From a virus: a stretch of DNA of 64,000 nucleotides. Under the pieces are notes generated by a model. It worked only from the letters and a program-made list of their open reading frames with translations. It did not search any database and was not told the origin of the DNA. Every line of letters begins with the position of its first letter. The stretch's first letter is position 1. Positions 1 through 62,251 of this stretch are shown piece after piece. Made by a program: the position numbers and the translations under genes. Location of the stretch: the IMG/VR virus record IMGVR_UViG_3300044618_001634, positions 1 to 64,000 of that record; one strand, 5' to 3'.

Positions 1-215
1 CCGCTAGGCCATGATAAAGTCGGTGATATATCCTTCCAATGATATACTGATAAATCTGGCCATTTAAGTTTTGCAGTAGCATAGACAGACTCTATGTCGT
101 TAATAATCACTCGAAATTTAGATTGATACGGCCCTACGCCATATTTTTTGATTGTGGATATACATAGATCAGCCTTGTCAAGATCTTTACTATAGGTGAC
201 TAATACTATTTCCAT
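1..215 (-). CDS. Partial nucleotide-sugar transferase-like protein, N-terminal part
   Basis: An open frame starts with ATG at 215 and runs off the left edge, giving 71 residues that begin MEIVLVTYSKDLDKADLCIS. The beta-strand followed by a Y/S-x-D-L-x-x-x-x-L-C-x-S pattern resembles the first Rossmann segment of GT-A-like transferases such as the DUF6492 type. The catalytic region lies outside the window. The start overlaps the end of uvsW by 10 bases, so it is probably the distal gene of the uvsW transcript. Function is inferred from the N terminus only. Confidence 0.45.
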   Translation of the reverse strand, partial: MEIVLVTYSKDLDKADLCISTIKKYGVGPYQSKFRVIINDIESVYATAKLKWPDLSVYHWKDISPTLSWPS

Positions 216-1666
216 TCTAGTTTCTCTTGTGTAAAGGGATAGTTGGCTTCTCGATAAAAAACTTTACGTTTGGTTAGGTGTCGTTTGGCAAACCTACAGG
301 TACTTGTTACGTCCCAGATTTGTACGTGGTCTTTGTCTTCGGCCTTTCGTATGCCTCGTCCAATTGATTGGATAACCCTAACAAATGATTTGCCAGGCTC
401 CACAAGCACAAGATTAAAAATACGGGGAATGTTAATGCCCACAGCGGCAACACCGTAAGTAGCAACAATAATTTTCCCAGTGGCTTCAGCAACTTCATCA
501 TATTCATCCTGTCTCGCTTTTGCTTTAGTTGCACCCGACACCATGACTGCATTATCGCCCAAGCGTTCAATAATACCTTGTCCTGCGGCAATGCGGTCAA
601 CTAATACAAGTGTATTACCAGTAACATTGACTTGCTTGATCAAGTTAGCAATGGTGTCTAGCCTGTTGGGTTCTTCTAGCAAGAACTTTAACTCACTTTG
701 ATAGTTGCTAAACTCTGCGTGATCAACCAACTGCACAATGTTCACATGGCACTGAGCCAATACGCCTTGATTTTGTAATTCGTTAGCCGATAACTTGCTG
801 ATCACTGGACCAAGGCTGCATTTAAGAGCTTGAAATTCAAATGGTTCTTTGGGCACTGTACCAGTAAGTCCCCAACGCAACGGAATACGACTCATCACTC
901 CTGTCAGCAGAGTCTTTAGTGCATCAGCCTTGGCCATGTGTACTTCGTCAACAATGACGCAAACTACATCTTCTAAAAACTCTCCAATGGTGCAATCACC
1001 TACACCTGCTTTTGTGTTCTTTAATAGGACATTTAAACTCTGCCAGGTACAGATGGTATGTGTGCGACCCCATTCCTTGCGATCACCAAAGTATACACCC
1101 ACGTCCTGTTGCATGTTGACATAGTCTTTTTCTGTTTGGGTCACTAGGCTTTTGTTGGGAACAATTACAATGGTACGACCATACGGTGCCACAGCATTCG
1201 ACAGTGCGGCTGTGATCACTGTCTTACCGGCGCCTGTGGCAATTTCTTGTATGCATTGTGGATTGGTTAAAAAGTTATTGATAATTTCAACTTGATAGTC
1301 GCGCAACTTCATGGGTTCGCCTTCTTGTGGATGACCCTTGCCCCAATTGATGTTGCTAAATGTATCTTCGTCCACGGAAATGAAATCAAAGTTGACACTA
1401 TAGTCTCGTTGATCATTTAACTCAATGTCATAGTTAAACTTTTCCAAGATAGGAATAATGTCTGGTAACAAATTCACATAAGTGCTACCACCTAGTTGAA
1501 AGTAACTTATCTTGCCGTCCCAACGTCCGAGTCTGACCGCGGGCAAATATCGAGCACCTGGAACATCATATTTAAAAGCATTAACCAAAGCTCGACGAGC
1601 GTCAAGTTCCAAGCCTTCAATTTTGATGTTTACTTCGTCTCGGATTGTAATTGTAGCTGTTCGCAT
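206..1666 (-). CDS. uvsW: UvsW-like DNA helicase (recombination/replication)
   Basis: This 486-residue superfamily 2 helicase matches T4 UvsW, which unwinds D-loops and R-loops, drives branch migration, and ends origin-dependent replication late in infection. The N-terminal UvsW-specific substrate-binding domain is present (YLPAVRLGRWDGKI, about 40-53). Walker A is ATGAGKT (143-149), the DEVH box is 240-243, and the C-terminal RecA-like domain ends with the arginine-finger motif QSIGRGIRK. Length is close to T4 UvsW. The ATG at 1666 lies only 6 nt from a TACAAT -10 element and has no Shine-Dalgarno site, so a leaderless message is predicted. The conserved N-terminal motif argues against a later start. 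Confidence 0.93.
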   Translation of the reverse strand: MRTATITIRDEVNIKIEGLELDARRALVNAFKYDVPGARYLPAVRLGRWDGKISYFQLGGSTYVNLLPDIIPILEKFNYDIELNDQRDYSVNFDFISVDEDTFSNINWGKGHPQEGEPMKLRDYQVEIINNFLTNPQCIQEIATGAGKTVITAALSNAVAPYGRTIVIVPNKSLVTQTEKDYVNMQQDVGVYFGDRKEWGRTHTICTWQSLNVLLKNTKAGVGDCTIGEFLEDVVCVIVDEVHMAKADALKTLLTGVMSRIPLRWGLTGTVPKEPFEFQALKCSLGPVISKLSANELQNQGVLAQCHVNIVQLVDHAEFSNYQSELKFLLEEPNRLDTIANLIKQVNVTGNTLVLVDRIAAGQGIIERLGDNAVMVSGATKAKARQDEYDEVAEATGKIIVATYGVAAVGINIPRIFNLVLVEPGKSFVRVIQSIGRGIRKAEDKDHVQIWDVTSTCRFAKRHLTKRKVFYREANYPFTQEKLEWK

Positions 1667-1672
1667 ATGATT

Positions 1673-1702
1673 ATTGTAACATACTTAGTTGACAAAAGTC
1701 AA
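1673..1702 (-). promoter_or_regulatory. Sigma70-type promoter for uvsW
   Basis: On the minus strand, TTGACT (1697-1702), an 18-nt spacer and TACAAT (1673-1678). Six nt separate the -10 from the uvsW ATG, so transcription should start at or next to the start codon. The -35 overlaps the U-tract of the upstream terminator. Confidence 0.7.
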
Positions 1703-1732
1703 AAAAACAGGTATCTTTTTAAGGATACCTGT
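1701..1732 (-). terminator. Rho-independent terminator after the AAA+ ATPase gene
   Basis: Perfect 9-bp stem (ACAGGTATC / GATACCTGT, 1707-1715 with 1724-1732), 8-nt loop, followed on the minus strand by seven T. It ends the ATPase transcript and shares bases with the uvsW -35 element. Confidence 0.88.
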
Positions 1733-1737
1733 CGAAA

Positions 1738-1757
1738 TGGGTAGTTTGTACTACCCA
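1738..1757 (-). other. Hairpin directly upstream of terminator
   Basis: Perfect 7-bp stem TGGGTAG / CTACCCA around a 6-nt loop, between the ATPase stop codon and the terminator. It has no U-tract of its own. It may stabilise the 3' end of the ATPase mRNA; that role is inferred. Confidence 0.5.
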
Positions 1758-1792
1758 GGAGCTACCATATACTTAACCGTTTTCAAATCCCC

Positions 1793-2818
1793 TTAGGAAT
1801 TTTTCATACAAGTTGTAGCCGCTAATGCTCTCCAATTTGTATCTGACACACGGGTTAAGTCTGCAATCTTAAGAGCCATACGCAAGCTCATTTCACGTAG
1901 TCGAGTTTGATTCTGTTCCATGAACTCGATCACCATGTCACCTTGTTCTTGTGTAAAGTCGTAGTCTGCAAACAGTTCGCCCTTACGGTAAATCTGCTTG
2001 ATACGCAAGAAACGATCGCGCATGGTATTGAGTGTAAGATCCAAAAAGTGACAGCGTGACTGAAGTGCTTCTAAGTGATCTTGCAACTTCTTAGATTTAA
2101 GGTTGCTGAACTGTAGGTTTGTGATAAAGATACAGGCACCCTTAAAGTCAAACATGTCTGGAACGCCTTCACGACGCAACATAGCACTATCACTATTCCA
2201 GTAGATTCTACGTTTCTTACCAGAGTCCAGCGCCGCTTTCAAAATGTTCAAGCTCAGGTCGTCTTGGAATACTGAGTCACAGTCGTCAAACACCAAAACG
2301 TTGTTCCGGTCAGAATGTTTGTATAGAGTGCAATACAGGCCAATCGGAGTCATGGCACCCTTGATCACTTCATACTTGACACGACGACCTGACAACTGGT
2401 CAAACAAGCCACTATGCTCCAATTGCTTTTCTACACCGTATGACTTGCCAACTCCGGGAGGGCCAACTACAATCATTGCACGGACATCGCCGGCAATTGT
2501 AGCCTTTGTCATTTGATCCAAAATGTCAAAGCGTTCGCCAATACGGGTCATCACTTCTTCATCTGTCTCCAATGGTGCTTTAGCAACTGGAGCAACGAAT
2601 TCACCCAATGGAACTGATTCGCTGGTAAACTCTAAATCTTCAATCGTGTTTACATTGATACGAACTACTTCGGGCAAGTCTGGGCCAAAATAGCCATCTG
2701 CATTCACAGTCACATAGCCTCCTTTGGCTCCTGTTTGGTAACCTTTAACCAAATTAAAGATCATGTTGTTTACGGGTTGATTACGGTATGTTCCGTTTAT
2801 AATTTTTACTGTGCTCAA
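1793..2818 (-). CDS. AAA+ ATPase of unknown partner
   Basis: 341 residues with Walker A GPPGVGKS (119-126) and Walker B VLVFDDCD (174-181), then a conserved sensor-like stretch (CIFITNLQF) and a helical C-terminal lid. The roughly 110-residue N-terminal extension has no motif I recognise. Similar stand-alone AAA+ proteins occur in aquatic T4-like phages without an assigned role; remodelling of a DNA or protein complex is a guess from the fold. The start is TTG at 2818, chosen because AAGGAG lies a few bases upstream and the reading begins MSTVKIINGTYRN. It has its own sigma70-type promoter and a strong terminator, so it is likely monocistronic and early. Confidence 0.8.
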   Translation of the reverse strand: MSTVKIINGTYRNQPVNNMIFNLVKGYQTGAKGGYVTVNADGYFGPDLPEVVRINVNTIEDLEFTSESVPLGEFVAPVAKAPLETDEEVMTRIGERFDILDQMTKATIAGDVRAMIVVGPPGVGKSYGVEKQLEHSGLFDQLSGRRVKYEVIKGAMTPIGLYCTLYKHSDRNNVLVFDDCDSVFQDDLSLNILKAALDSGKKRRIYWNSDSAMLRREGVPDMFDFKGACIFITNLQFSNLKSKKLQDHLEALQSRCHFLDLTLNTMRDRFLRIKQIYRKGELFADYDFTQEQGDMVIEFMEQNQTRLREMSLRMALKIADLTRVSDTNWRALAATTCMKNS

Positions 2819-3793: not shown

Positions 3794-3801
3794 TATTTAT
3801 C
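3794..3801 (-). promoter_or_regulatory. Late promoter GATAAATA
   Basis: T4-like late promoter on the minus strand upstream of the 215-residue gene, which starts at 3772. The leader carries AGGAG before the ATG. Confidence 0.7.
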
Positions 3802-4549
3802 ATTGCCAATGCTGGGCTATCACTGGGTCTTGCACATCGCCCGGTTTGGGCTTGCCGTGAAACACTAATACACTGGTTTTTTCTGGTATTACCGTGCCAG
3901 TATTTGGTGTTAGAAATATTCTTTTCTTAAAATCCCAGCCGCCGTCCTTGCATTCCCAACGCCAACTTTTAATACAGTCATGATCAAAGAATCTGCGATC
4001 AGTGGGACTAATTGCTTGTGTAATATAATCCTGATCGCCATAATATCTTCTGAAAACTTGCTCTAGATTTTCTCGTTTAAAACTGTCATAAACATTCTGA
4101 AACTTTTGGGTGTGGAACCACATCACACTGCTGTTGATAACGTGCTGTGTAGGGCGCCATAGATATTTGAAGTCTCGTAAACACCAGAAGTTGTCCAAGG
4201 GCAAGTTCCAAATCCAATCAATATTTCTGGCAATAACCACATCCAAATCAAAATACAACAATGGACCATTGTGGTGTGCAGTGTCAAACAATTGCAGTTT
4301 GTACCACCAACTACGGCGTGGCCCGGATACTCCCCAATCATATAGTTCGTGTTTGATCATATGATCCGGTACCGGCCTGCTGGCTTCGGTATAAACATGT
4401 AAGCGTATCCCTGGCGTAATATGTCTTTGTAACATATTGTATAGCCGCTCAACATAGTCCCAAGAGTAACCATCGCCGTGAATAACACACGCACAATCAA
4501 TGGGACCAGTGAGTTGATTTAGAGAGCTGGTGATAATCTTGTTAGCCAT
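3800..4549 (-). CDS. Glycosyltransferase, GT-A fold with DLD motif
   Basis: 249 residues. The motif LLYFDLDVVIARNIDWIW (about 97-114) is a typical DxD metal/nucleotide-sugar site of GT-A enzymes. The preceding SWWYKLQLFD segment is also usual in phage and bacterial transferases of this type. The C terminus has VLVFHGKPKPGD, with the His-Gly that commonly binds the diphosphate in GT8-like enzymes. It overlaps the next upstream gene by 31 bases, so the two are translationally coupled. Acceptor and sugar are not predictable. It is the first gene of the carbohydrate island. Confidence 0.75.
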   Translation of the reverse strand: MANKIITSSLNQLTGPIDCACVIHGDGYSWDYVERLYNMLQRHITPGIRLHVYTEASRPVPDHMIKHELYDWGVSGPRRSWWYKLQLFDTAHHNGPLLYFDLDVVIARNIDWIWNLPLDNFWCLRDFKYLWRPTQHVINSSVMWFHTQKFQNVYDSFKRENLEQVFRRYYGDQDYITQAISPTDRRFFDHDCIKSWRWECKDGGWDFKKRIFLTPNTGTVIPEKTSVLVFHGKPKPGDVQDPVIAQHWQ

Positions 4550-5364
4550 AGGCCTTTTCTAATTTCTTCTATAGTGTATTCGGTGTGACATATTTCGACC
4601 AGCCATTGATCCCTGTCAACGGTGTATGGTCGATCAAGTGCATCAAGTCCAATACTAACAGGATGAGCCAAACTACTAGTGCTTACAATGGGACGGGTTC
4701 CAGCCAAAGCAGCTTGTATGCCAGGACCAGAATTGTAGTTTACCAGAGCGTGACAATCAAAGGTTAAATTATAACTGTCATAGGTATTAGGAATTTGTTT
4801 TGGTATTTCTAATTCTACCCCCTTTGATAAATTTTGAATTTGTAATGGTGATCTTGGATGCGTCCTGACTGTAATAGGGCGGTCGGTTACTTGACGTAGT
4901 TGCTCGATTTGTTCGGCGACCCACGACTCCATGTTTGGCAATGCCGATACCTGTAGACTTTTTTTATGTTGGATTGCAATAATTATTCGAGGGTTTTTTG
5001 AAACATTAAGCGCCAGACTTATAAGCAACTTTCTTGGGCGATCTAGATCTAAATTTTCTTTGTGTCCATAATAGCCGTCGGCTGTGATATTGTTTATTGC
5101 AATTTTCCATGTTTCGCCGCGGTACAATGCACCAATGTCAACTACAATAACTGGTTTACCTTGTGAGCGATAATGTTTATAGACTGCTTGATTTTTACTC
5201 ATACGTCCGTGCCACAGTACCGACCATATGATCACGGCGTCACAATCAAGACTGTTCTCTATAGTTTTGACCCCAGCAAACTTTAATGATTCAAGCATGG
5301 CCGTCAGCACCGGGCCGCTGTTTTGAGCACACTGAAAAGGAAAGTAGGCAACTGTTTTGATCAC
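4519..5364 (-). CDS. Capsule/KDO-type glycosyltransferase paralog 1
   Basis: 281 residues from a GTG at 5364. The C-terminal half carries the family signature TVRTHPRS, then ALVNYNSGPGIQAALAGTRP and a W..E..YT-E-I..G-W tail. The same signature occurs in the genes at 11230, 12159 and 13156. It resembles bacterial capsule polysaccharide (KpsC/KpsS, KDO-transferase) proteins: an RxHP loop, and an N-S-x6-A-x3-G loop that binds the nucleotide sugar. The GTG start is inferred, because upstream extension would enter the divergent gene at 5377; it lies inside that gene's late promoter. Confidence 0.6.
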   Translation of the reverse strand: MIKTVAYFPFQCAQNSGPVLTAMLESLKFAGVKTIENSLDCDAVIIWSVLWHGRMSKNQAVYKHYRSQGKPVIVVDIGALYRGETWKIAINNITADGYYGHKENLDLDRPRKLLISLALNVSKNPRIIIAIQHKKSLQVSALPNMESWVAEQIEQLRQVTDRPITVRTHPRSPLQIQNLSKGVELEIPKQIPNTYDSYNLTFDCHALVNYNSGPGIQAALAGTRPIVSTSSLAHPVSIGLDALDRPYTVDRDQWLVEICHTEYTIEEIRKGLWLTRLSPAL

Positions 5365-5370
5365 TAAATA
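5363..5370 (+). promoter_or_regulatory. Late promoter ACTAAATA (leaderless type)
   Basis: Ends 6 nt before the ATG at 5377, with no Shine-Dalgarno site between, so the transcript should begin at about the start codon. Confidence 0.6.
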
Positions 5371-5376
5371 TCCGTA

Positions 5377-6180
5377 ATGAAATATACTGTAGTTACCACT
5401 TTTAATGCCAAGGGTTACGAAACATACGGGCGCCGAATGATCAATACGTTTTTGTCCAATTGGCCCACCAATGTTACCCTTATTGTTTACGCAGAAGGAT
5501 GTGCTGTTACTGAATCTGCCGCTAATCTCATTGTGCGTGATCTTGAACAGGTCACAGAAATGGTTGAATTTAAAAATCGCTGGCGGAATGTACCCAAAGC
5601 CAACGGAGATGTTAGTCACGATCCTGTACGCAGTCGTCGCAAGGATGCTGGCAAAGGGTTTAAGTGGGACGCTGTGCGTTTTGCCCATAAAGTTTATAGT
5701 ATATTTGATTGTGCAAAAAAATCCAATAGTGATTGGTTATTATGGATGGATGCTGACATGGTGTGCCATAGTCCTATCACGGTTGAAAAGTTAGATGAAC
5801 TATGTCGAGAAGATTTATGCTTCTTGGGTAGAGAGGGCAAGTACAGCGAATGCGGACTATATGCTATGAATTTACGTAGTGAGCGTGTAAAAGAGTTCTT
5901 GAAAAAATTTCAAACATACTACGATTATGCCGAAGAAGGTATTTTTACACTAGATGAATGGCATGATAGTTATGTGTTTGATGCTGTTCGTAAACAAGTT
6001 GGTATGAATATTGTAAACTGGAGTGCTGGGTTAATTAGAGGCGAAGGACATCCACTAATCAACTGTGAGTGGGGGAATTATCTAGACCATCTAAAAGGTG
6101 ATCGGAAAGCCATTGGACGTAGTAAGTTGAAAGATTTACTGGCACATCCTAAAGAAGGATACTGGTCGGCTAGTAATTAA
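5377..6180 (+). CDS. Glycosyltransferase, DxD (DADM) type
   Basis: 267 residues beginning MKYTVVTTFNAKGYE. The motif WLLWMDADMVCHSPIT (about 124-139) is the DxD site of a GT-A enzyme. The order of elements (V-T-[ST]-F start, KAYS/KVYSI before the DxD, E-[TC]-G-[IL]-[FY] after it) is shared with the minus-strand genes at 6170 and 8135, so these are paralogs. It is one of the few plus-strand genes in the island, and its 3' end overlaps the convergent gene by 11 bases. The sugar and acceptor are unknown. Confidence 0.75.
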   Translation: MKYTVVTTFNAKGYETYGRRMINTFLSNWPTNVTLIVYAEGCAVTESAANLIVRDLEQVTEMVEFKNRWRNVPKANGDVSHDPVRSRRKDAGKGFKWDAVRFAHKVYSIFDCAKKSNSDWLLWMDADMVCHSPITVEKLDELCREDLCFLGREGKYSECGLYAMNLRSERVKEFLKKFQTYYDYAEEGIFTLDEWHDSYVFDAVRKQVGMNIVNWSAGLIRGEGHPLINCEWGNYLDHLKGDRKAIGRSKLKDLLAHPKEGYWSASN

Positions 6181-6868
6181 AATTATCTTTATTGCCTTTA
6201 CTTTTATAATGATTTAAGTAAGGACCTAAGATAGTATGTCGTAACGGTGTCTTGTATTTTTTCTTAAAATCAGCACACAAATCTCTCACGTGAGGTTTGA
6301 ATTCATTGGCTACGGCGCCAAACACTTCTCCGTCATAAAATCTTCGAAGGTTTTCAGTAATGTGCTCGTCGTAATATTGTCTATATCGTTGTGCAAATGC
6401 TTTAAATTCTGGGTGGGTACGATTTACAACAAATATACCTGTTTCGGCACTGATCCAGATGCGGTTATCCTTCTCGTGATATACTTCCATGTACGTGGCA
6501 AGAACATTGTCAGGGCATAACAATTCTAACATGCCCATTGAAATATCAGCAGTGGTTAATACATCTGCATCAAGCCAGATAACTCTATCTGCTGTGCTAT
6601 GTTCCATAGCATGTATAACGCTATATGCTTTCTTGGCAAAAGTCTTTACACGATCCTTGACCGGACTTAGTTGGAATTTAAAATAACTATCCCCTAGTTC
6701 TGTAAATTCAATTTGTTTAATTCTTGCTTGCTCCGGTAATCGAAACTCTTCTACATAACAAGTAAAAACAAGTTCAGACGGCCAATGTTTCAACCATGTT
6801 TCAACACATGCATGCCCTATTTTATCATAGTATGCTTGGTCAAAACTTGTAATTACTTCTATATTCAC
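6170..6868 (-). CDS. Glycosyltransferase, DxD (DADV) type
   Basis: 232 residues from a GTG at 6868 whose GTGA overlaps the stop of the upstream gene by 4 bases; the family-typical start VNIEVITSFDQAYYDKIG supports it. DxD site RVIWLDADVLTTADIS, then ETGIFVVNRTHPEFKAF and a NHYKSKGNK tail that resembles the H-F-K-G-K of the paralog at 8135. It is translationally coupled to the FkbM-like gene at 6865, so sugar transfer and methyl transfer may act on the same glycan. That coupling is inference from gene order. Confidence 0.72.
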   Translation of the reverse strand: MNIEVITSFDQAYYDKIGHACVETWLKHWPSELVFTCYVEEFRLPEQARIKQIEFTELGDSYFKFQLSPVKDRVKTFAKKAYSVIHAMEHSTADRVIWLDADVLTTADISMGMLELLCPDNVLATYMEVYHEKDNRIWISAETGIFVVNRTHPEFKAFAQRYRQYYDEHITENLRRFYDGEVFGAVANEFKPHVRDLCADFKKKYKTPLRHTILGPYLNHYKSKGNKDNFNY

Positions 6869-7482
6869 CGAAGACCTACGCCCATGCGTTCTTTCCATTG
6901 ATCAAATGTTATTTCAGGAAAGTCAATGTCGTTCTTAACAAACCATGTTTCAAATTGATAATCGGGTTGTTTACAATAGACATTACTAACTGCAACTTTG
7001 TACCCTTTGCTAGTCAGGTACTCACGTACAATAGGATCGTGATCGGGTATGTGTTGCATGCCAGGATTACCGTTGTCGTGTTCAAAAGTGATACAATCAA
7101 ATTCGATACCTTGTTCTATTACCCGTTGCAACGCTAACAAGGTGTTAGTTGGTGGTTCAATATCGCAACTTAAATAACTAATGTGTTTTGTTAGACCTTG
7201 TTTTTCAAGTTGAGCAACGTAATCAAAGGTAATAGCATTTTCCCAACAAATAGGATTGGTTCTTTCCGGACAGTCTGCCCAGGCCTTTTGCCATTTTTTG
7301 TTTAATTCAAGACTGAATCCCTTCCATCCTTTGTTTACTTCCAGAATGTAGGTATTGTTTTTATGTGCTGGCTTGTAAGCACCAATTTCTATATAGGTAG
7401 CATTATCGCCACCGATACTATATGCAAACCAATCCTGATAGGCTTGTCCACGAGTTTTTACATCTAAAGTTGGGAAGTTCAT
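6865..7482 (-). CDS. FkbM-like methyltransferase
   Basis: 205 residues. The N-terminal stretch with ATYIEIGAYKPAHKNNT, then NKGWKGFSLEL, matches the SAM-binding first and second strands of FkbM methyltransferases (EIGA..P..[NS]NT..LE..GWKG...E). LSCDIEPP corresponds to the acidic motif after strand 4. It is a clear paralog of the plus-strand gene at 8944. FkbM enzymes usually O-methylate sugars or small molecules. It overlaps both neighbours by 4 bases, so it belongs to a tight operon with transferases. Confidence 0.75.
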   Translation of the reverse strand: MNFPTLDVKTRGQAYQDWFAYSIGGDNATYIEIGAYKPAHKNNTYILEVNKGWKGFSLELNKKWQKAWADCPERTNPICWENAITFDYVAQLEKQGLTKHISYLSCDIEPPTNTLLALQRVIEQGIEFDCITFEHDNGNPGMQHIPDHDPIVREYLTSKGYKVAVSNVYCKQPDYQFETWFVKNDIDFPEITFDQWKERMGVGLR

Positions 7483-8138
7483 TGTGGTATTAAATCCTTT
7501 TGACGTTTACCACTATAGTGATAAAAGTAATCTAGTAAATCAGTATCTTCAAATCCTTGAGGTGATTTTTTTACACTCTTACTAAGATTGCGATGTGGTA
7601 GTTCTTTGACCGCATACCACAGGACATCGTTGTCCCATGGCCGATGTAGAGTATCTACTATTCCATTGTACCATGCTTCTTCGTAGACGTTAGTCCACGA
7701 TTCAAACAATGGGTGTTGTGTGTCTATAATAACAAACCCCGACTCGGCTTGTTTTAAGTTTCCACAAATAATTGTGGCTACTTGCCCTTCCTCAGGCATG
7801 AATCTTGATAGATTGGGTTTACTGTTTACCTTAACATCGCTGTCTAACCAAATTACATAACGTGTTTTTAAATTACGAATTGCCCACAGGAAACATTTAC
7901 CTTTGCGCCAGAACTTACCCTTTTTGCCGCCGCCTATTGAAAAGTGAGGATCATTAGGATCAGGATATGCTGGTGCGGCATCTATTACTTCTACTCCAGG
8001 ATAGGTAAATCCTGGCATGTTTTCGGCCATGACAATTTTAGGACCGTCTAGTAATTCCCACCCGGGCAAATTATATTTTGCCACACTGTCAAAATACGAT
8101 TGGCTGAAACTTGTAACCCAAGTTATATCATATGTCAT
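7479..8138 (-). CDS. Glycosyltransferase-like protein, DSD motif
   Basis: 219 residues, start MTYDITWVTSFSQSYFDSV. The site RYVIWLDSDVKVNSKP is a DxD-type metal site, followed by ESGFVIIDTQHPLFESW, which is the same E-[ST]-G-[FI] block seen in the other transferases here. The insert HFSIGGGKKGKFWRKGK is Gly- and Lys-rich and unlike its paralogs. It overlaps the gene upstream by an ATGA. The product is probably a GT-A transferase; the acceptor is not known. Confidence 0.65.
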   Translation of the reverse strand: MTYDITWVTSFSQSYFDSVAKYNLPGWELLDGPKIVMAENMPGFTYPGVEVIDAAPAYPDPNDPHFSIGGGKKGKFWRKGKCFLWAIRNLKTRYVIWLDSDVKVNSKPNLSRFMPEEGQVATIICGNLKQAESGFVIIDTQHPLFESWTNVYEEAWYNGIVDTLHRPWDNDVLWYAVKELPHRNLSKSVKKSPQGFEDTDLLDYFYHYSGKRQKDLIPQ

Positions 8139-8884
8139 GCAAGCACCTGACTAACATAATCTTTGATAGCAAACTGTTTGTATAACTCCTCAGCTTGACG
8201 TTTAATTTTACCTTTGAAATGCCCTACGTCATCGTTGACCATGCTACCGCGTATAGGAGTATTACCTTTTTGACGTAGATTCATTTCTGTAAATGTAATT
8301 CCTAATTTTTCACAATCTTTAACCACATGTCCGTGAACATTACTATCATAGAATCGACCCATGCCTTCCATACGATCGTTATCATAGTAATCTCTATAGA
8401 TACGAGCAAAGTCTTTGCGACCAGGATGTTTTAGATCAAATATAAAAAATCCACTTTCGACACAAAACTCTCCGCTGTCGTGTGTTACTCCAAGATGTGC
8501 CGATAAATTGTTGTTTAGTATTTTTCTAAAAAATGCTTCGTCAAGTGGACGTTTAATAAAAGCATCGGCATCTAACCAAAGCATAGTGTCGGCAGTGCCA
8601 TGTTCTGTGCCTTCTAAAACTGTATAACCTTTTTTAGCAAAACTAATAACTTTTTGCATGATCTTACCTTGCCATCGGTCTTCAAATTGTTTAAATCCGT
8701 TGTCGAGGCTGTACAGATCGACCAAGTTGATTCGAGGATTCAACTTGGGCCACTTATCATAGTCCTCTGTAGTAACAGTAATTTGTGTATCTGCTGGGAG
8801 AAACTTTAATGCACTAGCCAAGCTGTATTTGCCAATATCATTAAAATAATCAATGCTTTGTGATGTGTAAACGTGAATTGTCAT
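8135..8884 (-). CDS. Glycosyltransferase, DxD (DADA) type
   Basis: 249 residues, first gene of the minus-strand run 8884 to 6170. It has FAKKGYTVLEGTEHGTADT, then MLWLDADAFIKRP (DxD), VESGFFIFDLKHPGRKDF and the C-terminal VGHFKGKIKR. All of these align with the genes at 5377 and 6170. It is driven by a perfect TATAAATA late promoter (8911-8918) with AAAGG before the ATG. As the promoter-proximal gene it should be the best expressed of this set. Confidence 0.75.
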   Translation of the reverse strand: MTIHVYTSQSIDYFNDIGKYSLASALKFLPADTQITVTTEDYDKWPKLNPRINLVDLYSLDNGFKQFEDRWQGKIMQKVISFAKKGYTVLEGTEHGTADTMLWLDADAFIKRPLDEAFFRKILNNNLSAHLGVTHDSGEFCVESGFFIFDLKHPGRKDFARIYRDYYDNDRMEGMGRFYDSNVHGHVVKDCEKLGITFTEMNLRQKGNTPIRGSMVNDDVGHFKGKIKRQAEELYKQFAIKDYVSQVLA

Positions 8885-8909
8885 TTATAACCTTTTTAAT
8901 TAACTACCC

Positions 8910-8929
8910 ATATTTATAGTTATAAATAT
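8910..8929. promoter_or_regulatory. Back-to-back divergent late promoters in a palindrome
   Basis: Minus-strand TATAAATA (8911-8918) and plus-strand TATAAATA (8921-8928) face away from each other, separated by 2 bases. The arms ATATTTATA and TATAAATAT form a perfect inverted repeat. One serves the transferase at 8884, the other the methyltransferase at 8944. Both genes have Shine-Dalgarno-like sequences (AAAGG; AAGGAA). Confidence 0.8.
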
Positions 8930-8943
8930 CTGGCAAGGAAATC

Positions 8944-9564
8944 ATGACATTCTATTTTAACCAACTTAATACTGTGCTATTCAATAAATCTGCCGAAGCC
9001 AAGGTAGACCGTTTTGCTTACGGCTTATCTGGGGCCAATGGTACCTATATTGAAATAGGTGCCAGTAAACCAGTACAACGTAGCAACACCGTAGCATTAG
9101 AGCGTCAAGGATGGAAAGGGTTTGGGATCGAATTTGACCCTCGACTTCAACCACTATGGCCCGACTGTAGAACCAATCATATATATTGGGCTGATGCTAC
9201 TAAATTTGATTACATAGCAGCGGCCAAAGAACAAGGACTGCCTGATCGTATTAACTTTTTGCAAGTGGATATTGAGCCACCAGAAAATACGTTTGCCGCG
9301 CTTAAATTGGCTGTAGAATCAGGATTGACTTTTGATTTTATTGCGTTTGAACATGACGTGTATTGTCAAGATGTAGACTATAATGTAATTGCCACAGATT
9401 ACTTGTTAACTAAAGGTTACAAAGTTGCAGTTTACAATGTTTGCTCACAGCGTAAGCGTAACCCAGGAGTATGGAGCCACATAGAAACGTGGTATGTTAA
9501 AAATGACATACCCTTTGAAACTATGGAATTCTTTGATTGGAAAAAGAAATACAACGTACAATGA
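8944..9564 (+). CDS. FkbM-like methyltransferase, paralog of the 6865 gene
   Basis: 206 residues. The key blocks GTYIEIGASKPVQRSNT, RQGWKGFGIEFDP, NFLQVDIEPPENTF and FEHD repeat those of the minus-strand gene at 6865, including the end HIETWYVKNDIPFE. This shows a duplication with inversion, or separate capture from one family. The gene begins a three-gene plus-strand operon (methyltransferase, epimerase, dehydrogenase) with ATGA overlaps. That fits synthesis and decoration of an unusual sugar. Confidence 0.75.
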   Translation: MTFYFNQLNTVLFNKSAEAKVDRFAYGLSGANGTYIEIGASKPVQRSNTVALERQGWKGFGIEFDPRLQPLWPDCRTNHIYWADATKFDYIAAAKEQGLPDRINFLQVDIEPPENTFAALKLAVESGLTFDFIAFEHDVYCQDVDYNVIATDYLLTKGYKVAVYNVCSQRKRNPGVWSHIETWYVKNDIPFETMEFFDWKKKYNVQ

Positions 9565-10442
9565 AAAAAATATTAGTTACAGGTAGTAATGGATTTATTG
9601 GGCAACACCTGTGTCCGGCGCTGGATCAGTTAGGGCATAGTGTATATGCTGTTGATCGAACACTAGGCGGAGATTTATGCGATAAAGCATTTGTGGATGG
9701 ATTGCCGGATGTAGATATTGTGGTACATCTTGCCGCCCATAACGGTACAAAACATTTTTATAATCGGCCATTTGATGTTGTTCGAGACGGTGTGTTGCCA
9801 ACACAATATCTGTTAGAACGTTATGCTGGCAAAGTTAGTAGATTTGTGTTTACTGGAACTTGTGAAAGTTATGCCGGCGCTGTGGATTTGTTTAATTATC
9901 CAGTTCCCACAGATGAAAAGGTTCCCTTGGTCATTGGTGACGTAACTAACCCTCGCTGGAGTTACGGAGGCAGTAAGATTGTAAATGAAATCCAGGTTGT
10001 TGCTGCCAAAGAACAATTTGGTCAACGCTATTCAATTATACGATATCACAATGTATATGGGCCAGGCCAACAGGATCACTTTATTCCTGAATTTTATCAG
10101 CGGGCACTCACTGGTGATCTTACACTGTATGGCTGGGAAAATACTCGTAGCTTTATGTACATCAGTGATGCTATTGTTGCTACTATGCGTGTAATTCTGG
10201 AAGAATCGTTTACAAATGAAATTGTAAACATTGGCATTGATAACGAGATCAGTATTAAAGATTTAGCAGGAAAAATTCTAACAGTTGCTGGCATTGATGG
10301 AGAGTTGATATTAAAAGATGCTCCAGAAGGTTCAGTAAAACGTCGGTGTGCCGACGTATCAAAGTTTAATCGACTTACCTGGTTTGTGCCAAAAGTCGAG
10401 TTAGATGAAGGCATTAGATTAACATTAGAGAGTTTAAAATGA
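9561..10442 (+). CDS. NAD-dependent sugar epimerase/dehydratase
   Basis: 293 residues of the extended SDR family. The NAD-binding G8-x2-G11-x2-G14 is in ILVTGSNGFIGQHL; the DLC block, VVHLAAH, the T-G-T segment and the catalytic Y135-x3-K139 (SYGGSK) are all present. HNVYGPGQQDHFIPEF is the typical substrate-binding strand of UDP- or GDP-sugar epimerases and dehydratases. The start is the ATG at 9561, in an ATGA overlap with the methyltransferase. It probably converts a nucleotide sugar that the neighbouring transferases use. The precise reaction (4-epimerase or 4,6-dehydratase) cannot be fixed by eye. Confidence 0.82.
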   Translation: MKKILVTGSNGFIGQHLCPALDQLGHSVYAVDRTLGGDLCDKAFVDGLPDVDIVVHLAAHNGTKHFYNRPFDVVRDGVLPTQYLLERYAGKVSRFVFTGTCESYAGAVDLFNYPVPTDEKVPLVIGDVTNPRWSYGGSKIVNEIQVVAAKEQFGQRYSIIRYHNVYGPGQQDHFIPEFYQRALTGDLTLYGWENTRSFMYISDAIVATMRVILEESFTNEIVNIGIDNEISIKDLAGKILTVAGIDGELILKDAPEGSVKRRCADVSKFNRLTWFVPKVELDEGIRLTLESLK

Positions 10443-11233
10443 AAATAGGTGTAATTGGTTGGGGTGTTGTTGGAAGTGCATGCGGCGAAGGCTTTAAAAT
10501 GCTCGGACACGATGTTAAGATTCATGATTCTAAATTTAATACACTGATTAACGAAGTGCTCGATACCGAACTGGTATTTGTTTGTGTGCCAACGCCGCCT
10601 GGTCCTAACGGAGAGTGCGATCTTAGTATTGTGCATCAAACTATTCAGCACCTTATTGCCAATAATTATCAAGGTGTTATTGCGCTTAAATCAACCAGCG
10701 TACCAGGAACAACACAAAGTATTATTGATCAATACCCAGATCTTGACATTTGCTTTGTTCCAGAATTTTTACGTGAGCGTACTGCATTAGAGGATTTTGT
10801 TCGCAATCATGATTTGTTAGCAGTAGGTTGCCACACCGATCGTGCATGGCATCGTGTATGTGAAGCACACGACTGGTTGCCAAAAAATAAGGTACGCATG
10901 ACTCCAACTGAAGCTGAGATTCTTAAGTATTACAGTAATACATTTAATGCTGTGCGTATTGTATTTGCTAATGTCATGTATGAAATTTGTGAAAAGTTAG
11001 ACAGCGATTACGAAACTATTCTAAATACTTTCTTGTTGCGCAAAACTACAAGCCCAGATTATTTAAGTTGTGGTCCAGACATGCGCGGATACGGTGGCAT
11101 GTGTTTGCCCAAAGATACTAAGGCTATGGCTGACTTATGTAAAAGATTGGACTTACCGTTTGAATTATTTGATACTGTAGATCATGATAACAGTCAAGTC
11201 AAGCGTACAGTATTTCCTGGTATGCGTTTTTAA
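10439..11233 (+). CDS. Short UDP-glucose/GDP-mannose dehydrogenase-family protein
   Basis: 264 residues. NAD site G4-V-I-G7-W-G9-x2-G12, then VFVCVPTPPGPNG, the KSTSVPGTT strand, FVPEFLRE, the helix with K163 and N167 (EILKYYSNTFNA), and the catalytic Cys222 in GYGGMCLPKD. These are the canonical oxidising-site elements that turn a UDP-hexose into a uronic acid. Full-length family members have about 390-450 residues; this one stops soon after the catalytic Cys and lacks the C-terminal nucleotide-sugar-binding domain. It may work with a partner, or be a reduced enzyme. It overlaps the epimerase by ATGA and the convergent gene by 4 bases. Confidence 0.8.
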   Translation: MKIGVIGWGVVGSACGEGFKMLGHDVKIHDSKFNTLINEVLDTELVFVCVPTPPGPNGECDLSIVHQTIQHLIANNYQGVIALKSTSVPGTTQSIIDQYPDLDICFVPEFLRERTALEDFVRNHDLLAVGCHTDRAWHRVCEAHDWLPKNKVRMTPTEAEILKYYSNTFNAVRIVFANVMYEICEKLDSDYETILNTFLLRKTTSPDYLSCGPDMRGYGGMCLPKDTKAMADLCKRLDLPFELFDTVDHDNSQVKRTVFPGMRF

Positions 11234-12162
11234 ATAAACTCTCGCATGTGGCGCCAGCATGCACCCGATTGCAGTTCATTAAAATTCCAGTGGCTCATAG
11301 CCAGCCGTTCAACCCACTTTTGCCTATCTGGTAACAGTGGGTTTTCAATTTGTGTCAAATCAGTGTTGGCGATTTCAGCACACTGGCTTCGTGCTGGATC
11401 TGTAATAAAAACTGGCCACCCTTCGATTGCGGCACCTACTACTGGACTTGAATTGTGATTAACAACTGCCCAGCAATGTTTAAGGTCTTTGTTTAATGGT
11501 GGATTATCGATACTTATTTCAATCGATCCTAAACCTCTTTGATTACAAAGGTGTATAATTTCATTACAGTAACGGGGGCTTTGACGATCGCCCGGATGAG
11601 GACGTAATCGTATAGGTCTTTGTGTATGTTGTCTAAGTTTAGCAATAGTAGTTACCGCCCAATCAACTACACTGTATCCTCCCATCGACCATCCTCCGTT
11701 GCGTTGTAAACATAACAAAATATGATTTCCGGTGGGTCTATAATCTTTAAGGTGGATGCCCAGATCTTTACTAATTTGTTGCCACCTTGATGGTGTTGGT
11801 GTAGTATCACAATAGATACCAGTGTTTGGAAACACACCATTAAAACTATATCTAAGATAGTGTTGAGGATTTCCAGGAGTGGCATATAGAAATAAATTAC
11901 TATCAACCGCTACTACACGTCGGTTAGTTCGAATTTGTTCTTGTATTATTTGATTTCGCAAACGCAAATGAGGAGCTTCAGCAACATCTGCAATCCATCC
12001 TTGTATCACTGCTACGTCTGTAGAACGATATTGGTGATCTTCAACATCAATGACCTGTTCACCGAGTAATCTAGCACCCTCAGCAAAAAATTTCAGCAGA
12101 TTAACTTTTTCTGGATTCTTAGCGTTAGGAACTGTGCGATGATATACTGCCACTGATGTCAT
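11230..12162 (-). CDS. Capsule/KDO-type glycosyltransferase paralog 2
   Basis: 310 residues. The C-terminal half carries RLRPHPGD, then AVVNHNSSPVVGAAIEGWPV and IENPLLPDRQKWVERLAMSHW, matching the paralogs at 4519, 12159 and 13156. The N-terminal half includes VAVIQGWIADVAEAPHLRLR, a domain seen also in paralog 3. It resembles KpsC/KpsS-like transferases that build capsule linkers. It is the last gene of the long minus-strand run from uvsX, linked to its neighbour by ATGA. Confidence 0.65.
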   Translation of the reverse strand: MTSVAVYHRTVPNAKNPEKVNLLKFFAEGARLLGEQVIDVEDHQYRSTDVAVIQGWIADVAEAPHLRLRNQIIQEQIRTNRRVVAVDSNLFLYATPGNPQHYLRYSFNGVFPNTGIYCDTTPTPSRWQQISKDLGIHLKDYRPTGNHILLCLQRNGGWSMGGYSVVDWAVTTIAKLRQHTQRPIRLRPHPGDRQSPRYCNEIIHLCNQRGLGSIEISIDNPPLNKDLKHCWAVVNHNSSPVVGAAIEGWPVFITDPARSQCAEIANTDLTQIENPLLPDRQKWVERLAMSHWNFNELQSGACWRHMREFI

Positions 12163-13166
12163 TTTTTTGCAGTTTCAATTACAGGCAATAATGCCAACCA
12201 TGCTTCGCCGGTGTACATTTCATCTAGTGTCCATTGGCATAGTGCTAATTGTTCAAGCCATACATTAACCTCTGCAGGATCGGACATTTTTATATCTTCA
12301 ATTTCTTTAACAAAATTAGTACTAATACTCCAGGCAAAATTTCCAGTATCGCATGCTACTGTAGGTATACCGGCTATGATACTATCAATGGCTAAACCAC
12401 TAGTATATGTTACTGTACAATATGCATCAGCAAGGTCATCTGCCCAGGCCACTTCGGCACCATCGCTAAATTTGATGTTGGAGATCCCTTCTAATAATAT
12501 TTTACGGGCAAGTTCTTCATGATCTCCAAATGCTCGCATGCTTGCTAGTGGATGATTTCGTACTACGATTGGACGATCGCTTACTTTTCGTATGTCTCGT
12601 ATGGTTCGGAATGCCCAATCATTGATATCAGTCCCTCGCAAACTGGCATCGCCCGGCAACTGCAATGCCAGTACTATGTGTCCGTCAATATTATTTTGCC
12701 AGCCGGACCACTCAATCCCTAAATCGTCTAATCTTGTTTTGCCTCGAGCTGAATCTAGATCTGGCCAACTGGCGCTTTGATTTAAAAATCCATTCACACC
12801 TACTCTCCAGTGTGTATTCTCGTTTGAAGTTTTGCGCCCTAGTAATGGAGTTTCGATACAAACGAAACACTTAGAATTTTGTGCAACACTATTGCGTACT
12901 AAATGATGTCCTTTTTCTCTTGGCTTCCAACTTCCAGACATCACAGCAACATCGCACGGAGTGTAATTTTCACTATATTCATACTCTAAAGTATTAACAA
13001 CATCAGCCTGCACGTTTGCCCATCGTCCAATCCTTACAATATCTTTAAAACGATCTTCTTCGGGCAAATTTTCTTGAATCCATTTATCGATTCCTGCTCC
13101 AAAATTTTGCAGTAATTCTCGTTCCAGGTAACTGTTAGCTGTTGCCATAAAAATTTTAATGTTCAT
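12159..13166 (-). CDS. Capsule/KDO-type glycosyltransferase paralog 3
   Basis: 335 residues, the longest of the four paralogs. It has DVAVMSGSWKPREKGHHLVR in the N-terminal domain (compare paralog 2), then PIVVRNHPLA, CTVTYTSGLAIDSIIAGIPT and the tail LCQWTLDEMYTGEAWLALL. In the N-S-x6-A loop the Asn is Thr (YTSG), which may alter donor binding. It overlaps its neighbour at 13156 by 11 bases. Confidence 0.62.
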   Translation of the reverse strand: MNIKIFMATANSYLERELLQNFGAGIDKWIQENLPEEDRFKDIVRIGRWANVQADVVNTLEYEYSENYTPCDVAVMSGSWKPREKGHHLVRNSVAQNSKCFVCIETPLLGRKTSNENTHWRVGVNGFLNQSASWPDLDSARGKTRLDDLGIEWSGWQNNIDGHIVLALQLPGDASLRGTDINDWAFRTIRDIRKVSDRPIVVRNHPLASMRAFGDHEELARKILLEGISNIKFSDGAEVAWADDLADAYCTVTYTSGLAIDSIIAGIPTVACDTGNFAWSISTNFVKEIEDIKMSDPAEVNVWLEQLALCQWTLDEMYTGEAWLALLPVIETAKK

Positions 13167-13947
13167 TTATTATCCTGTATGCTGTGCCATTTTTTAATTC
13201 ACTTATGTGAAACTGACCGTAGGCCAAATGGCAGGCCCAGGCATATAACTTATCGCTGTCGGCGTAGTAAGGTGTTTCAATTTGTGCAAGGTCTTTGCAA
13301 GCTACCGGATCTGCGGCATTTGGGGCTACTGTAAACACAGGTATGCCGTGCAATATACTTTCGGTTGCGGCTATTGTATTATAAGCTACCACCGCAAATA
13401 CATCATTATCAAGTGCCTGCTCAAACGTGTTAACAAGAACACGATTTCCACGCTTTCCTGGTTTTGATCTAATTTCTACCGGGCGGTCTGTGTGCTGTGC
13501 CAATGTGTTTAAAATAGTATCGATCCATTGCTCAGTATCAATGCCATAAAATTTGGCGGGCTTTTCGCCTGGTGGAAGAACTAATATTTTACGACCACTT
13601 TTTTTCCAGGGCGGTATAATACGATTGTGTTTCAGCCATCGATCGTCTGGGCGTGATATAATTTCTGTGTGTTGTAAATTATTTTTTGCTATACGATGCC
13701 ATAGCTTATATCCTCGAGGATTGGTTGAATTAACTTCGTTGCCAAAATATCCAGTATCCATATAATAAAATGTGCGTCCATCATTCCAGCATTGTTTCAT
13801 TATTTTATGCTTCAAAATACCACGTAACACAATTGGCTCTCGACTGTGATTATATACAAAATCGTCTGTATTAGTCGGCGATACATGTGCCCCAGCGGCA
13901 AGCATATTCATATACTTGTCTGTTCCACCTTTACTAAGAAATATCAT
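13156..13947 (-). CDS. Capsule/KDO-type glycosyltransferase paralog 4
   Basis: 263 residues. Family blocks: PVEIRSKPGKRG (the His of RxHP replaced by Lys), AVVAYNTIAATESILHGIPV, LAQIETPYYADSDKLYAW and the tail YGQFHISELKNGTAYR. The N-terminal domain is shorter than in paralogs 2 and 3. The changed RxHP loop suggests either a different specificity or loss of activity. ATGA overlap with the methyltransferase upstream. Confidence 0.58.
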   Translation of the reverse strand: MIFLSKGGTDKYMNMLAAGAHVSPTNTDDFVYNHSREPIVLRGILKHKIMKQCWNDGRTFYYMDTGYFGNEVNSTNPRGYKLWHRIAKNNLQHTEIISRPDDRWLKHNRIIPPWKKSGRKILVLPPGEKPAKFYGIDTEQWIDTILNTLAQHTDRPVEIRSKPGKRGNRVLVNTFEQALDNDVFAVVAYNTIAATESILHGIPVFTVAPNAADPVACKDLAQIETPYYADSDKLYAWACHLAYGQFHISELKNGTAYRIINEH

Positions 13948-14516
13948 TTCAACTTTATCTCTGCTTTTATGTATTTTGGACGTCGATCTATTACTTCCAC
14001 AATATCAAAACATTGTTCGTGTGCAGTCCTTGGACGTATATCCATAATAATTTTGGTATTCTCGTGACTATGTTTCCTAATTAAATCTTGGTAAGTGTCA
14101 ACTGGATAGTGATATCCGCAAGACAGATAACTACAAATTAAATCAAATTTTGTATCTTCTGGAATATCAATCTTGGTGGCATCAACAAATCGATATTTTA
14201 AATCAGTGTGTTGATCAAAATATTCTTTTAATTTTTCAATCGGATTATAAAATTTCATTGTTTCAGCAGGGCCGTAACGAACTAACCGATCGCTTCTAGA
14301 TGGACTATTAGAAAAATCACCATCTAATAACCATACATTAGATTTTGACTGTTGATAAAACTGTTGAGATTCAAAAGCAAATCCACACCCTATGTCAAGT
14401 ATAGACTCAGGCGCTGATCCTAAATATCCGGAGATAGATTTAAACGATTGTGTTTTTTCTTTGATATAATCAGGTAACAACCAGCCCTGTAACCATTTGT
14501 CATGATTATCAAGCAT
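13944..14516 (-). CDS. Class I SAM-dependent methyltransferase
   Basis: 190 residues with the SAM motif ESILDIGCGFAFESQQF (about 37-53), a second-strand acidic residue in VWLLDGDFSN, and FDLICSYLSCGYHYPVD as motif IV/post-IV. Small size suits a small-molecule or sugar methyltransferase. It lies between a GT-A transferase (one-base TAATG overlap) and the capsule-type paralogs, so it likely acts on the same product. The substrate is unknown. Confidence 0.75.
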   Translation of the reverse strand: MLDNHDKWLQGWLLPDYIKEKTQSFKSISGYLGSAPESILDIGCGFAFESQQFYQQSKSNVWLLDGDFSNSPSRSDRLVRYGPAETMKFYNPIEKLKEYFDQHTDLKYRFVDATKIDIPEDTKFDLICSYLSCGYHYPVDTYQDLIRKHSHENTKIIMDIRPRTAHEQCFDIVEVIDRRPKYIKAEIKLK

Positions 14517-15199
14517 TACTGACTACGCTGTAAGCAATAATCTGTAAGCATACGCTCACGATGCCATTCGTCACCCATTGGTGTTGTGGCAAATTCTGTA
14601 AAGCAAGGTGTGCCTAGCGTATAATGCAACAGCTTGGCATCCGGATTTGGGCCATACTCGTCTGGTAACCAGTTCCACTCTCGAGGTAATTCACCAATGC
14701 GCTCATCATCGATCCAACTAAAACGATGCAGGTATGCGCCTGTACTGTTTTCAATAAATTCTGGAGTTAATTTTCTATTAGGATGGTTATTGCAATTCCA
14801 AAGAATAACGCTGGACCAATTCTTCCGCGGATAATCTTCATTCTTACTACCAAGATATTTTTCTGTCATCTTGGTTTTGTAATCATGTTTGACTACCATG
14901 ACATCTGTGTGACTTTCACGCAAGTCCCAAAGTTTAGTAATGTCGTCTCTAACAATCATGTCTCCATCGATAAAAATTGCCCAGCCCTGGTAACTCATTA
15001 GATGCGGCACCAAGAAACGACTGTAGATAAAGTGATTACTGCCGTCGGTGTGTGTTTCTGTGTAGTCTTTAAACAAGTTAAGTGCCAACGGCATAATTGC
15101 CACTGGGCGGCTAGCATGCCTAATAATACTGTTCGCACACACATGGAATGCAATTGCTTCGCGAGGATCGTACCCGATAAAAATTGGAATTGGTGTCAT
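14516..15199 (-). CDS. Glycosyltransferase, DGD motif
   Basis: 227 residues from the ATG at 15199, starting MTPIPIFIGYDPREAIAFHV. IGYDPREAIAFHVCANSI is the typical N terminus of a GT-A family often found in phages and proteobacteria. The DxD-like site is WAIFIDGDMIVRDDI. LLHYTLGTPCF near the end holds the conserved His of the donor site. A longer upstream reading exists but would overlap UvsY, so the start just after the uvsY stop was chosen. Confidence 0.78.
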   Translation of the reverse strand: MTPIPIFIGYDPREAIAFHVCANSIIRHASRPVAIMPLALNLFKDYTETHTDGSNHFIYSRFLVPHLMSYQGWAIFIDGDMIVRDDITKLWDLRESHTDVMVVKHDYKTKMTEKYLGSKNEDYPRKNWSSVILWNCNNHPNRKLTPEFIENSTGAYLHRFSWIDDERIGELPREWNWLPDEYGPNPDAKLLHYTLGTPCFTEFATTPMGDEWHRERMLTDYCLQRSQ

Positions 15200-15201
15200 G
15201 T

Positions 15202-15657
15202 CTATATTGTAATGTCTTCCATCCCAGCTGCACGTAATCGAACCACGTGACCCATTTGCCATTGTTTGGTATCGAGTCCCTTCATGATGCCTAGCCAGCG
15301 ATTGCGTAACAGTGCCACTTCGTTGATAATTGTTTCAAAGTCAATGACTTCGTCTTCACCATCTACATACTTTTCAGCATCGCGACTAGATAATGTTCTA
15401 GCATAGCCTTCAAGATATTTTTGAAAATGTTTACGACGAATTTTGCGTAGTTGTATGTTAAGGAAATTTAATACTGCTTCGATTTCCTGTAGTTGATTGA
15501 ACCTGTGCTCTGTTATGCCTGGCAAGGCTGTGATATTTTTCTCCACAAGCCCGCCTATACGACATTCGGCTTTGGCGCCAACTAGCTCATTTTCATAATG
15601 TTCAATGAAATCTGGAATTGCGCCAAGGTTTGCTACAACTTTACTATACCACATCAA
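15202..15657 (-). CDS. uvsY: UvsY-like recombination mediator
   Basis: 151 residues, helical. The C-terminal half (DEVIDFETIINEVALLRNRW, then LGIMKGLDTKQWQMGHVVRL and RAAGMED) lines up with the C terminus of T4 UvsY (DVLKVDTSLQYWGILLDFC... and ...FAIKHIQDMRAFEAGK), including the R-x-x-x-A-G end. UvsY loads UvsX onto gp32-coated ssDNA. The position two genes downstream of uvsX in one overlapping operon supports the call. It is overall weakly similar to T4, so some doubt remains. Confidence 0.72.
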   Translation of the reverse strand: MMWYSKVVANLGAIPDFIEHYENELVGAKAECRIGGLVEKNITALPGITEHRFNQLQEIEAVLNFLNIQLRKIRRKHFQKYLEGYARTLSSRDAEKYVDGEDEVIDFETIINEVALLRNRWLGIMKGLDTKQWQMGHVVRLRAAGMEDITI

Positions 15658-15911: not shown

Positions 15912-15913
15912 TC

Positions 15914-18119: not shown

Positions 18120-18130
18120 GTCCTTGGGAG

Positions 18131-46757: not shown

Positions 46758-46759
46758 CG

Positions 46760-62171: not shown

Positions 62172-62176
62172 GCTTT

Positions 62177-62184
62177 TATTTATC
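62177..62184 (-). promoter_or_regulatory. Late promoter GATAAATA (leaderless type)
   Basis: Ends 5 nt before the homing endonuclease ATG at 62171. Confidence 0.68.
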
Positions 62185-62251
62185 ATAGTCCGTGGCATTA
62201 CTAAACATAATACACTCGAACTGACTCTTTTGTCAAATAATTTGGCCAACA

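Follow-up and report, generated by a model that had tools for sequence, protein, structure and literature searches.

A variable carbohydrate-gene island between uvsY and uvsW of an uncultured T4-like phage, and the possible target of its predicted glycan

It was noted in 2010 that marine T4-like phages carry clusters of carbohydrate genes, with the question left open of whether these are functional or mere filler (PMC3037559). Those of the cyanophages P-SSM2, S-SSM7 and S-SM2, known as 'LPS' (lipopolysaccharide) clusters, contain several glycosyltransferase (GT) families, an NDP-sugar epimerase/dehydratase, a UDP-glucose dehydrogenase and methyltransferases (PMC3037559, PMC7824862). Later work took such clusters as a means of changing the host surface. 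Here we describe a comparable island, made of 15 open reading frames (ORFs) at 3800-15262 between uvsY and uvsW, in a window of 64,000 nucleotides that covers nearly all of a 64,298 bp metagenomic virus fragment (IMG/VR record IMGVR_UViG_3300044618_001634). Like the cyanophage clusters, it is tight, lies in a T4-like genome and is polymorphic among relatives. We propose, with moderate confidence, that it is a functional and exchangeable cassette making a variable glycan in the cytoplasm, most likely on virion proteins, and the evidence from the window makes the virion a concrete rival to the host surface as target.

The source of the window is assigned, from its genes for UvsW, UvsY, UvsX, a gp32-type single-stranded DNA-binding protein, terminase, tail sheath, tail tube and gp23, to an uncultured T4-like myovirus, a water phage of bacteria. 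UvsX and gp23 share at most about 67% identity with those of cultivated phages, the nearest being jumbo phages that include Atu_ph07, CBB, GAP32 and Vibrio 2.275.O. A DNA search of phage records at near-identity gave no match to the window; many relatives are present in IMG/VR.

Gene content of the island

Nearly all 15 ORFs overlap by a few bases, and intergenic distances range from -69 to +59 bp (Table 1). This bears out the description, made in a sequence-only reading of the window, of an island almost without gaps; the limits which that reading had set, 3800-15199, were right except for the last gene, whose start is at 15262. Several paralogous GTs and NDP-sugar-modifying enzymes are tightly packed, as in cyanophage LPS clusters, and the presence of GTs, sugar-nucleotide enzymes and a methyltransferase in one such cluster supports the idea of a phage-borne, multi-gene glycan pathway. 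In pairwise comparison, three groups of paralogues emerged, one with four GT-A-like members, one with four GT-B-like members and one with two putative methyltransferases, so that much of the island was probably built by local duplication. No membrane segments were found in the island proteins.

The number of GTs announced, about ten, was right: six assignments are firm or fairly so, and the other four are probable. The protein encoded at 14516-15262 belongs to Pfam GT8 (PF01501, 33.5 bits for a cut-off of 24.3) and has a DxD motif. Genes 5377, 6170, 7479 and 8135 (named, as below, by their first coordinate in Table 1) form a single paralogous GT-A-like family, and in the alignment of 38 sequences W103, D105 and D107 are invariant, which gives an invariant DxD. 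The top solved-structure match of the family profile, a weak one (E=0.021), is A064R of the chlorovirus PBCV-1, a capsid-glycan GT. Membership of these four proteins in GT2 was rejected, as PF00535 scored 17-18 bits on two of them, below the cut-off of 23.3, and gave nothing on the other two.

The four paralogues 4519, 11230, 12159 and 13156 are probable GT-B-like glycosyltransferases. This call comes from a weak match to DUF6716, a 'putative glycosyltransferase' domain, in 6 of 50 family members and never above cut-off; R, R/HPGD, NS and E are invariant throughout the set, and no PDB match was found for the family profile. By the counts available, the family appears almost confined to phages: it was found on at least 588 viral contigs, compared to 3 contigs in 84,980 species genomes, the genome scan having used a tighter subset, with the profile from all 50 proteins being too diverse. 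Two of these 3 contigs (L172 and L173) show the same uvsX-uvsY-island-uvsW order and thus represent phage DNA in a metagenome-assembled genome (MAG), and the third, from a SAR11 single-cell genome, is likely of phage origin as well. Separately, the relatives carried by this SAR11 contig (L171) and by phage contigs assigned to a Marinimicrobia MAG (L172) each provide a weak hint of the host of the wider lineage.

The epimerase claimed for the island is certain (Table 1). The structures nearest to the profile of this short-chain dehydrogenase/reductase (SDR) are UDP-glucuronate 4-epimerase, UDP-glucose epimerase and UDP-glucuronate decarboxylase, and T-x-E and YxxxK are invariant in the family, which we take to lean towards decarboxylase or dehydratase chemistry. 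As for the uronate-forming dehydrogenase, the family is certain, and what did not hold is the normal, full-length form: the protein has 264 aa and lacks the C-terminal domain. Catalytic E, K, N, C and D are kept in its NAD-binding and central domains. The protein has no C-terminal UDP-binding domain, PF03720, and a search for this domain elsewhere in the record, all of which was covered, gave no match either. All 21 aligned relatives are equally short (245-280 aa) with catalytic residues retained, and the dehydrogenase and SDR genes are adjacent in nearly all loci. A further sugar-nucleotide gene, common in the islands of relatives and absent from that of the window, encodes an RfaE-type nucleotidyltransferase fused to a cupin domain (L084:6872-7633, fusion seen by eye).

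The class I methyltransferase recognised at 13944-14516 is plausible, by weak matches (Table 1). The FkbM label given to genes 6865 and 8944 was unsupported, a direct PF05050 search included. FkbM identity was tested four ways and rejected: no Pfam FkbM, NCBIfam or PHROG match was obtained, and hhalign of the family against true FkbM proteins of phages aligned just 22 motif-I columns, with a probability of 21%. Both proteins carry a SAM-type motif I and are putative SAM-dependent methyltransferases of a new family. The true FkbM methyltransferase gene of the contig is at 45292-45888, adjoined, beside tail-fibre genes, by two glycosyltransferases at 45885-46757 and 46760-47947 (the latter matching phrog_3408, 5e-204). 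With this second locus at 45292-47947, the phage has two glycan modules.

Turnover, selection and promoter boxes

The sequence-only reading had proposed to compare island content between close relatives, and this content indeed differs strongly, the island being sporadic and variable among related phages. Relatives were sampled with island and UvsX queries, so that slot occupancies are not frequencies, and some near-duplicates are present among the 50 island-bearing relatives. In these, GTs, methyltransferases and sugar enzymes of varying order and strand take up 7-16 kb between uvsY and AAA/uvsW. In five relatives the slot is empty or nearly so; it measures 229 bp in L105, about 1.1 kb with one methyltransferase in L086, L088 and L096, and 2.4 kb in L095. 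Identity between L006 and the window is 97.9% over 14526-16418 and falls to 71% at 13180-13947; in L006 the 13944-14516 methyltransferase is missing, and a different GT replaces 12159-13166. Likewise, pairs of phages with 95-99% identical uvsX-uvsY stretches (L070/L071, L216/L228, L050/L062 and L051/L062) diverge at or inside the island. The breakpoints are sharp, near-identical phages parting abruptly, and together with the turnover of content this fits an exposed, diversifying structure.

Where synonymous sites were unsaturated, dN/dS was 0.02-0.3 for most island genes; the methyltransferase gave about 0.4 when compared with distant relatives. For nearly all island genes, nonsynonymous divergence was far below synonymous divergence.

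A second exchangeable cassette, found between uvsX and gp32 (16977-20174), consists of radical SAM/SPASM (NF033640), SDR, second radical-SAM-like and sulfotransferase-like genes; other genes fill this position in relatives.

The motif ATAAATA resembles the T4 late promoter TATAAATA. In CBB and GAP32, which are related phages, it has been reported upstream of structural genes as the putative late promoter (PMC5259590). In the window, NATAAATA is found at only 12 sites, mostly 4-26 bp upstream of genes, among which are the tail-tube gene (site at 21 bp), the tail-sheath gene (26 bp) and a structural gene (17 bp). Two perfect TATAAATA boxes stand back to back in 8885-8943, the only wide divergent gap of the island. 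In relatives, ATAAATA was present upstream of 43 of 131 divergent slot starts (shuffles gave a mean of 6.4 and a maximum of 11), 24 of 416 co-directional ones (13.6 expected) and 3 of 497 replication-gene starts (3/212 and 0/285), and it was the commonest among 21 anagrams. A homologue of the late sigma factor gp55 was found in 7 of 15 large related records, island carriers included. By sequence, the elements of a T4-type late promoter are thus in place, with TATAAATA upstream of late genes and a gp55 homologue in relatives, which suggests that part of the island is under late-type promoters, like the tail genes. An ATAAATA box of its own is also carried by an HNH-endonuclease-like gene (37480-37824), which separates the tail sheath gene from the operon that follows and is read from the other strand.

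The probable acceptor of the proposed glycan

The sequence-only reading had offered three targets, the virion, the DNA and the host surface. The first is favoured by the late-promoter boxes and the second disfavoured by the lack of a hydroxymethylase; the third is discussed below. Neither the initiating enzyme of the PHPT family (PF02397) nor the Wzx flippase (PF01943) was present in 17 records. With no hydroxymethylase, no lipid-linked start enzyme, no flippase and no membrane protein, what is left is a virion protein or the extension of an existing host glycan, and we favour the virion because of the late-type promoters. In the proposed pathway, the short UDP-sugar dehydrogenase, together with the SDR encoded next to it, would convert a host UDP-sugar into UDP-uronic acid and then a derived product, the GT-A-like and GT-B-like enzymes would attach sugars singly, without lipid carrier, and one to three methyltransferases would cap the chain. 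The resulting variable oligosaccharide, partly uronic-acid-derived and methylated, would be made in the cytoplasm of the infected cell, and its acceptor would most likely be at least one protein of the virion, from capsid, tail or fibre. That the product is a glycan, its placement on virion proteins, the identity of the sugars and the order of steps are what we infer, and hosts, grazers or rival phages may be what selects for diversity of this glycan among relatives. Chloroviruses, which encode cytoplasmic glycosylation and methylation of their capsid (PMC5408694), indicate that such a scheme works.

Several points weigh against a late-made virion glycan. The late boxes are predicted sites, found as sequence matches, and the gp55 match is absent from the record of the window, a fragment. 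Not all of the island is late: genes 11230-15262 (GT-B-like paralogues 2 to 4, methyltransferase and GT8) continue the uvsX-uvsY operon without gap, and therefore probably share its early or middle transcript. Both the glycan and its virion acceptor are predictions, and hypervariability fits a change of the host surface equally well.

Such a change, in which the enzymes would extend or alter the LPS core, O antigen or capsule and so block competing phages, or the sticking of progeny to debris, is in our view unlikely, though far from negligible. It is the published reading of similar cyanophage and pelagimyophage clusters (PMC7824862, PMC7029224), and agrees with the variation of island content among close relatives, the RfaE-type (heptose-like) nucleotidyltransferase with cupin domain added in islands of relatives, and the presence of a GT8 member above cut-off, GT8-type enzymes being often LPS enzymes. 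Late-type promoters in the core of the island would nevertheless leave little time for exclusion. The absence of PF02397, PF01943 and island membrane proteins is a partial objection, since enzymes that extend a host LPS core need no lipid-carrier start.

DNA hypermodification, a many-sugar version of the T4 beta-gt/alpha-gt system in which GTs would decorate hydroxymethylated phage bases against restriction, is improbable. The T4 beta-gt gene does sit near the uvsX/uvsY region. There are also reports of several phages whose DNA receives diverse glycans (Pyle 2024, as cited in PMC12619734). Nevertheless, no dCMP/dUMP hydroxymethylase of the thymidylate-synthase fold (PF00303) was found in 30 phage records, several of them of 110-200 kb with islands and the window itself being a fragment; the positive control, T4 gp42, was detected at 3.9e-17. 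On this ground, T4-type DNA glucosylation was not kept as the main hypothesis. A search for Tet/JBP in 16 records, made without positive control, gave no match. Moreover, ten GTs with uronate and methyl chemistry appear excessive for simple DNA glucosylation, a point already made from the sequence alone.

We give still less credit to a small glycosylated metabolite or modified peptide, made together with the radical-SAM/SPASM, SDR and sulfotransferase-like genes just across uvsX. A secondary-metabolite role was proposed by Iyer et al. for a second cyanophage cluster, but the radical-SAM/SPASM cassette and the island are present or absent independently in relatives, and neither a precursor nor a carrier protein was found. 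Least credible is an island without function, retained as filler for headful packaging. Such a role had been considered for cyanophage LPS clusters (PMC3037559), and the island-less close relatives L088, L086, L096 and L105 might point to it; codon-level constraint largely refutes it, since strong purifying selection argues against decay or filler, as do tightly overlapping ORFs, catalytic residues conserved across 40-50% identity and promoter boxes in excess of shuffles.

Virion glycosylation is the reading that we favour. Selection that keeps the enzymes, exchange of cassettes between almost identical phages and late-type boxes are all visible at sequence level. More tentatively, we suggest a widespread uncultured T4-like lineage with a 'glycotype' locus in its replication module, which might be likened to bacterial capsule loci: it would ensure late, lipid-carrier-free and phage-private virion glycosylation, be swapped among nearly identical phages by recombination anchored in uvsX/uvsY and uvsW, and use a two-domain UDP-sugar dehydrogenase working without UDP-binding domain. 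Should strain-specific sugars be present on virions, this phage glycotype system would affect adsorption, decay and competition in natural waters. Its GT-B-like family and short dehydrogenase are without close characterised relative.

Table 1. Features of the island and of its borders, with the evidence for each.
Feature	Coordinates	Strand	Evidence
UvsW helicase + AAA ATPase (phrog_1250), left slot border	206..2818	-	PHROG match
GT-A-like glycosyltransferase, FDLDV = DxD (motif by eye)	3800..4549	-	phrog_1962 glycosyltransferase 2e-20
GT-B-like putative glycosyltransferase, paralogue 1	4519..5364	-	paralogy to other three; probable GTG start at 5364; no own Pfam/PHROG match
GT-A-like glycosyltransferase, MDADM	5377..6180	+	weak PF00535; family alignment with invariant DxD
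GT-A-like glycosyltransferase, LDADV	6170..6898	-	weak PF00535/PF01501; paralogy
Putative SAM-dependent methyltransferase, new family (first gene labelled FkbM-like)	6865..7482	-	45% identity to 8944-9564; motif I YIEIGA..P; no library match
GT-A-like glycosyltransferase, LDSDV	7479..8138	-	paralogy; family alignment
GT-A-like glycosyltransferase, LDADA	8135..8884	-	paralogy; family alignment; dN/dS 0.02 vs L024
Late-promoter-like box TATAAATA	8911..8918	-	26 bp upstream of 8135-8884 start; conserved in L020, L024
Late-promoter-like box TATAAATA	8921..8928	+	15 bp upstream of 8944-9564 start; conserved in L020, L024
Putative SAM-dependent methyltransferase, same new family (second gene labelled FkbM-like)	8944..9564	+	alignment of 14 sequences, 36 invariant columns
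NDP-sugar epimerase/dehydratase/decarboxylase, extended SDR, TxE + YxxxK	9537..10442	+	PF01370 1.4e-37
Short UDP-sugar dehydrogenase, NAD-binding + central domain	10439..11233	+	PF00984 1e-20, PF03721 1e-16
GT-B-like putative glycosyltransferase, paralogue 2, phage-restricted family	11230..12162	-	family alignments
GT-B-like putative glycosyltransferase, paralogue 3	12159..13166	-	paralogy
GT-B-like putative glycosyltransferase, paralogue 4	13156..13947	-	paralogy
Class I methyltransferase, possibly sugar O-methyltransferase	13944..14516	-	Methyltransf_25 4e-4; sugar O-methyltransferase NanM 0.0026; without counterpart in L006
GT8-type glycosyltransferase, IDGDM	14516..15262	-	PF01501 4.3e-8, above cut-off; phrog_28018 2e-36
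UvsY recombination mediator, right slot border	15202..15657	-	phrog_231 1.7e-12

Elsewhere in the window, a homing-endonuclease-like gene (61365-62384) overlaps the 3' end of gp23, a protein of 1195 aa without PHROG match is encoded amid structural genes (55253-58840), and a radical-SAM-like gene (39787-40653), apart from the cassette at 16977-20174, adjoins head-tail connector genes.

Comparison with known systems

The island is of the same kind as the cyanophage and pelagiphage clusters (PMC3037559, PMC7824862, PMC7029224). Cyanophage clusters lie near hli03/phoH and tRNAs and include sugar kinases, whereas the island occupies the uvsY-uvsW slot; its GT-B-like and methyltransferase families differ from theirs, and UDP-glucose dehydrogenase has about 383 aa in S-SSM7 and HTVC008M, compared to 264 aa here. 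In pelagimyophages, unlike here, the hypervariable GT islands described are found amid tail-fibre genes (PMC7029224). By gene families, the nearest cultivated parallel is the cluster of Pelagibacter phage Mosig EXVC030M, adjoining a RuvC gene, which shares GT-B-like relatives and a GT8 protein (44% identity) and also has two methyltransferases and a sulfotransferase-like gene, with far fewer GTs than the island. In Caulobacter jumbo phages, GT-B-like and GT8 relatives are kept as neighbours.

Like chlorovirus PBCV-1 (A064R and others), the phage encodes soluble DxD GTs and methyltransferases, those of PBCV-1 acting in the cytoplasm; PBCV-1 is nevertheless an unrelated virus of a eukaryotic host, the profile match is weak with homology at fold level at best, and the phage system is known from its genes. 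The T4 beta- and alpha-glucosyltransferases are likewise phage GTs near recombination genes, but they belong to other families, and no hydroxymethylase partner was found here. What appears distinctive of the present island is its fixed slot in the replication module, its phage-private enzyme families, its two-domain dehydrogenase and its late boxes.

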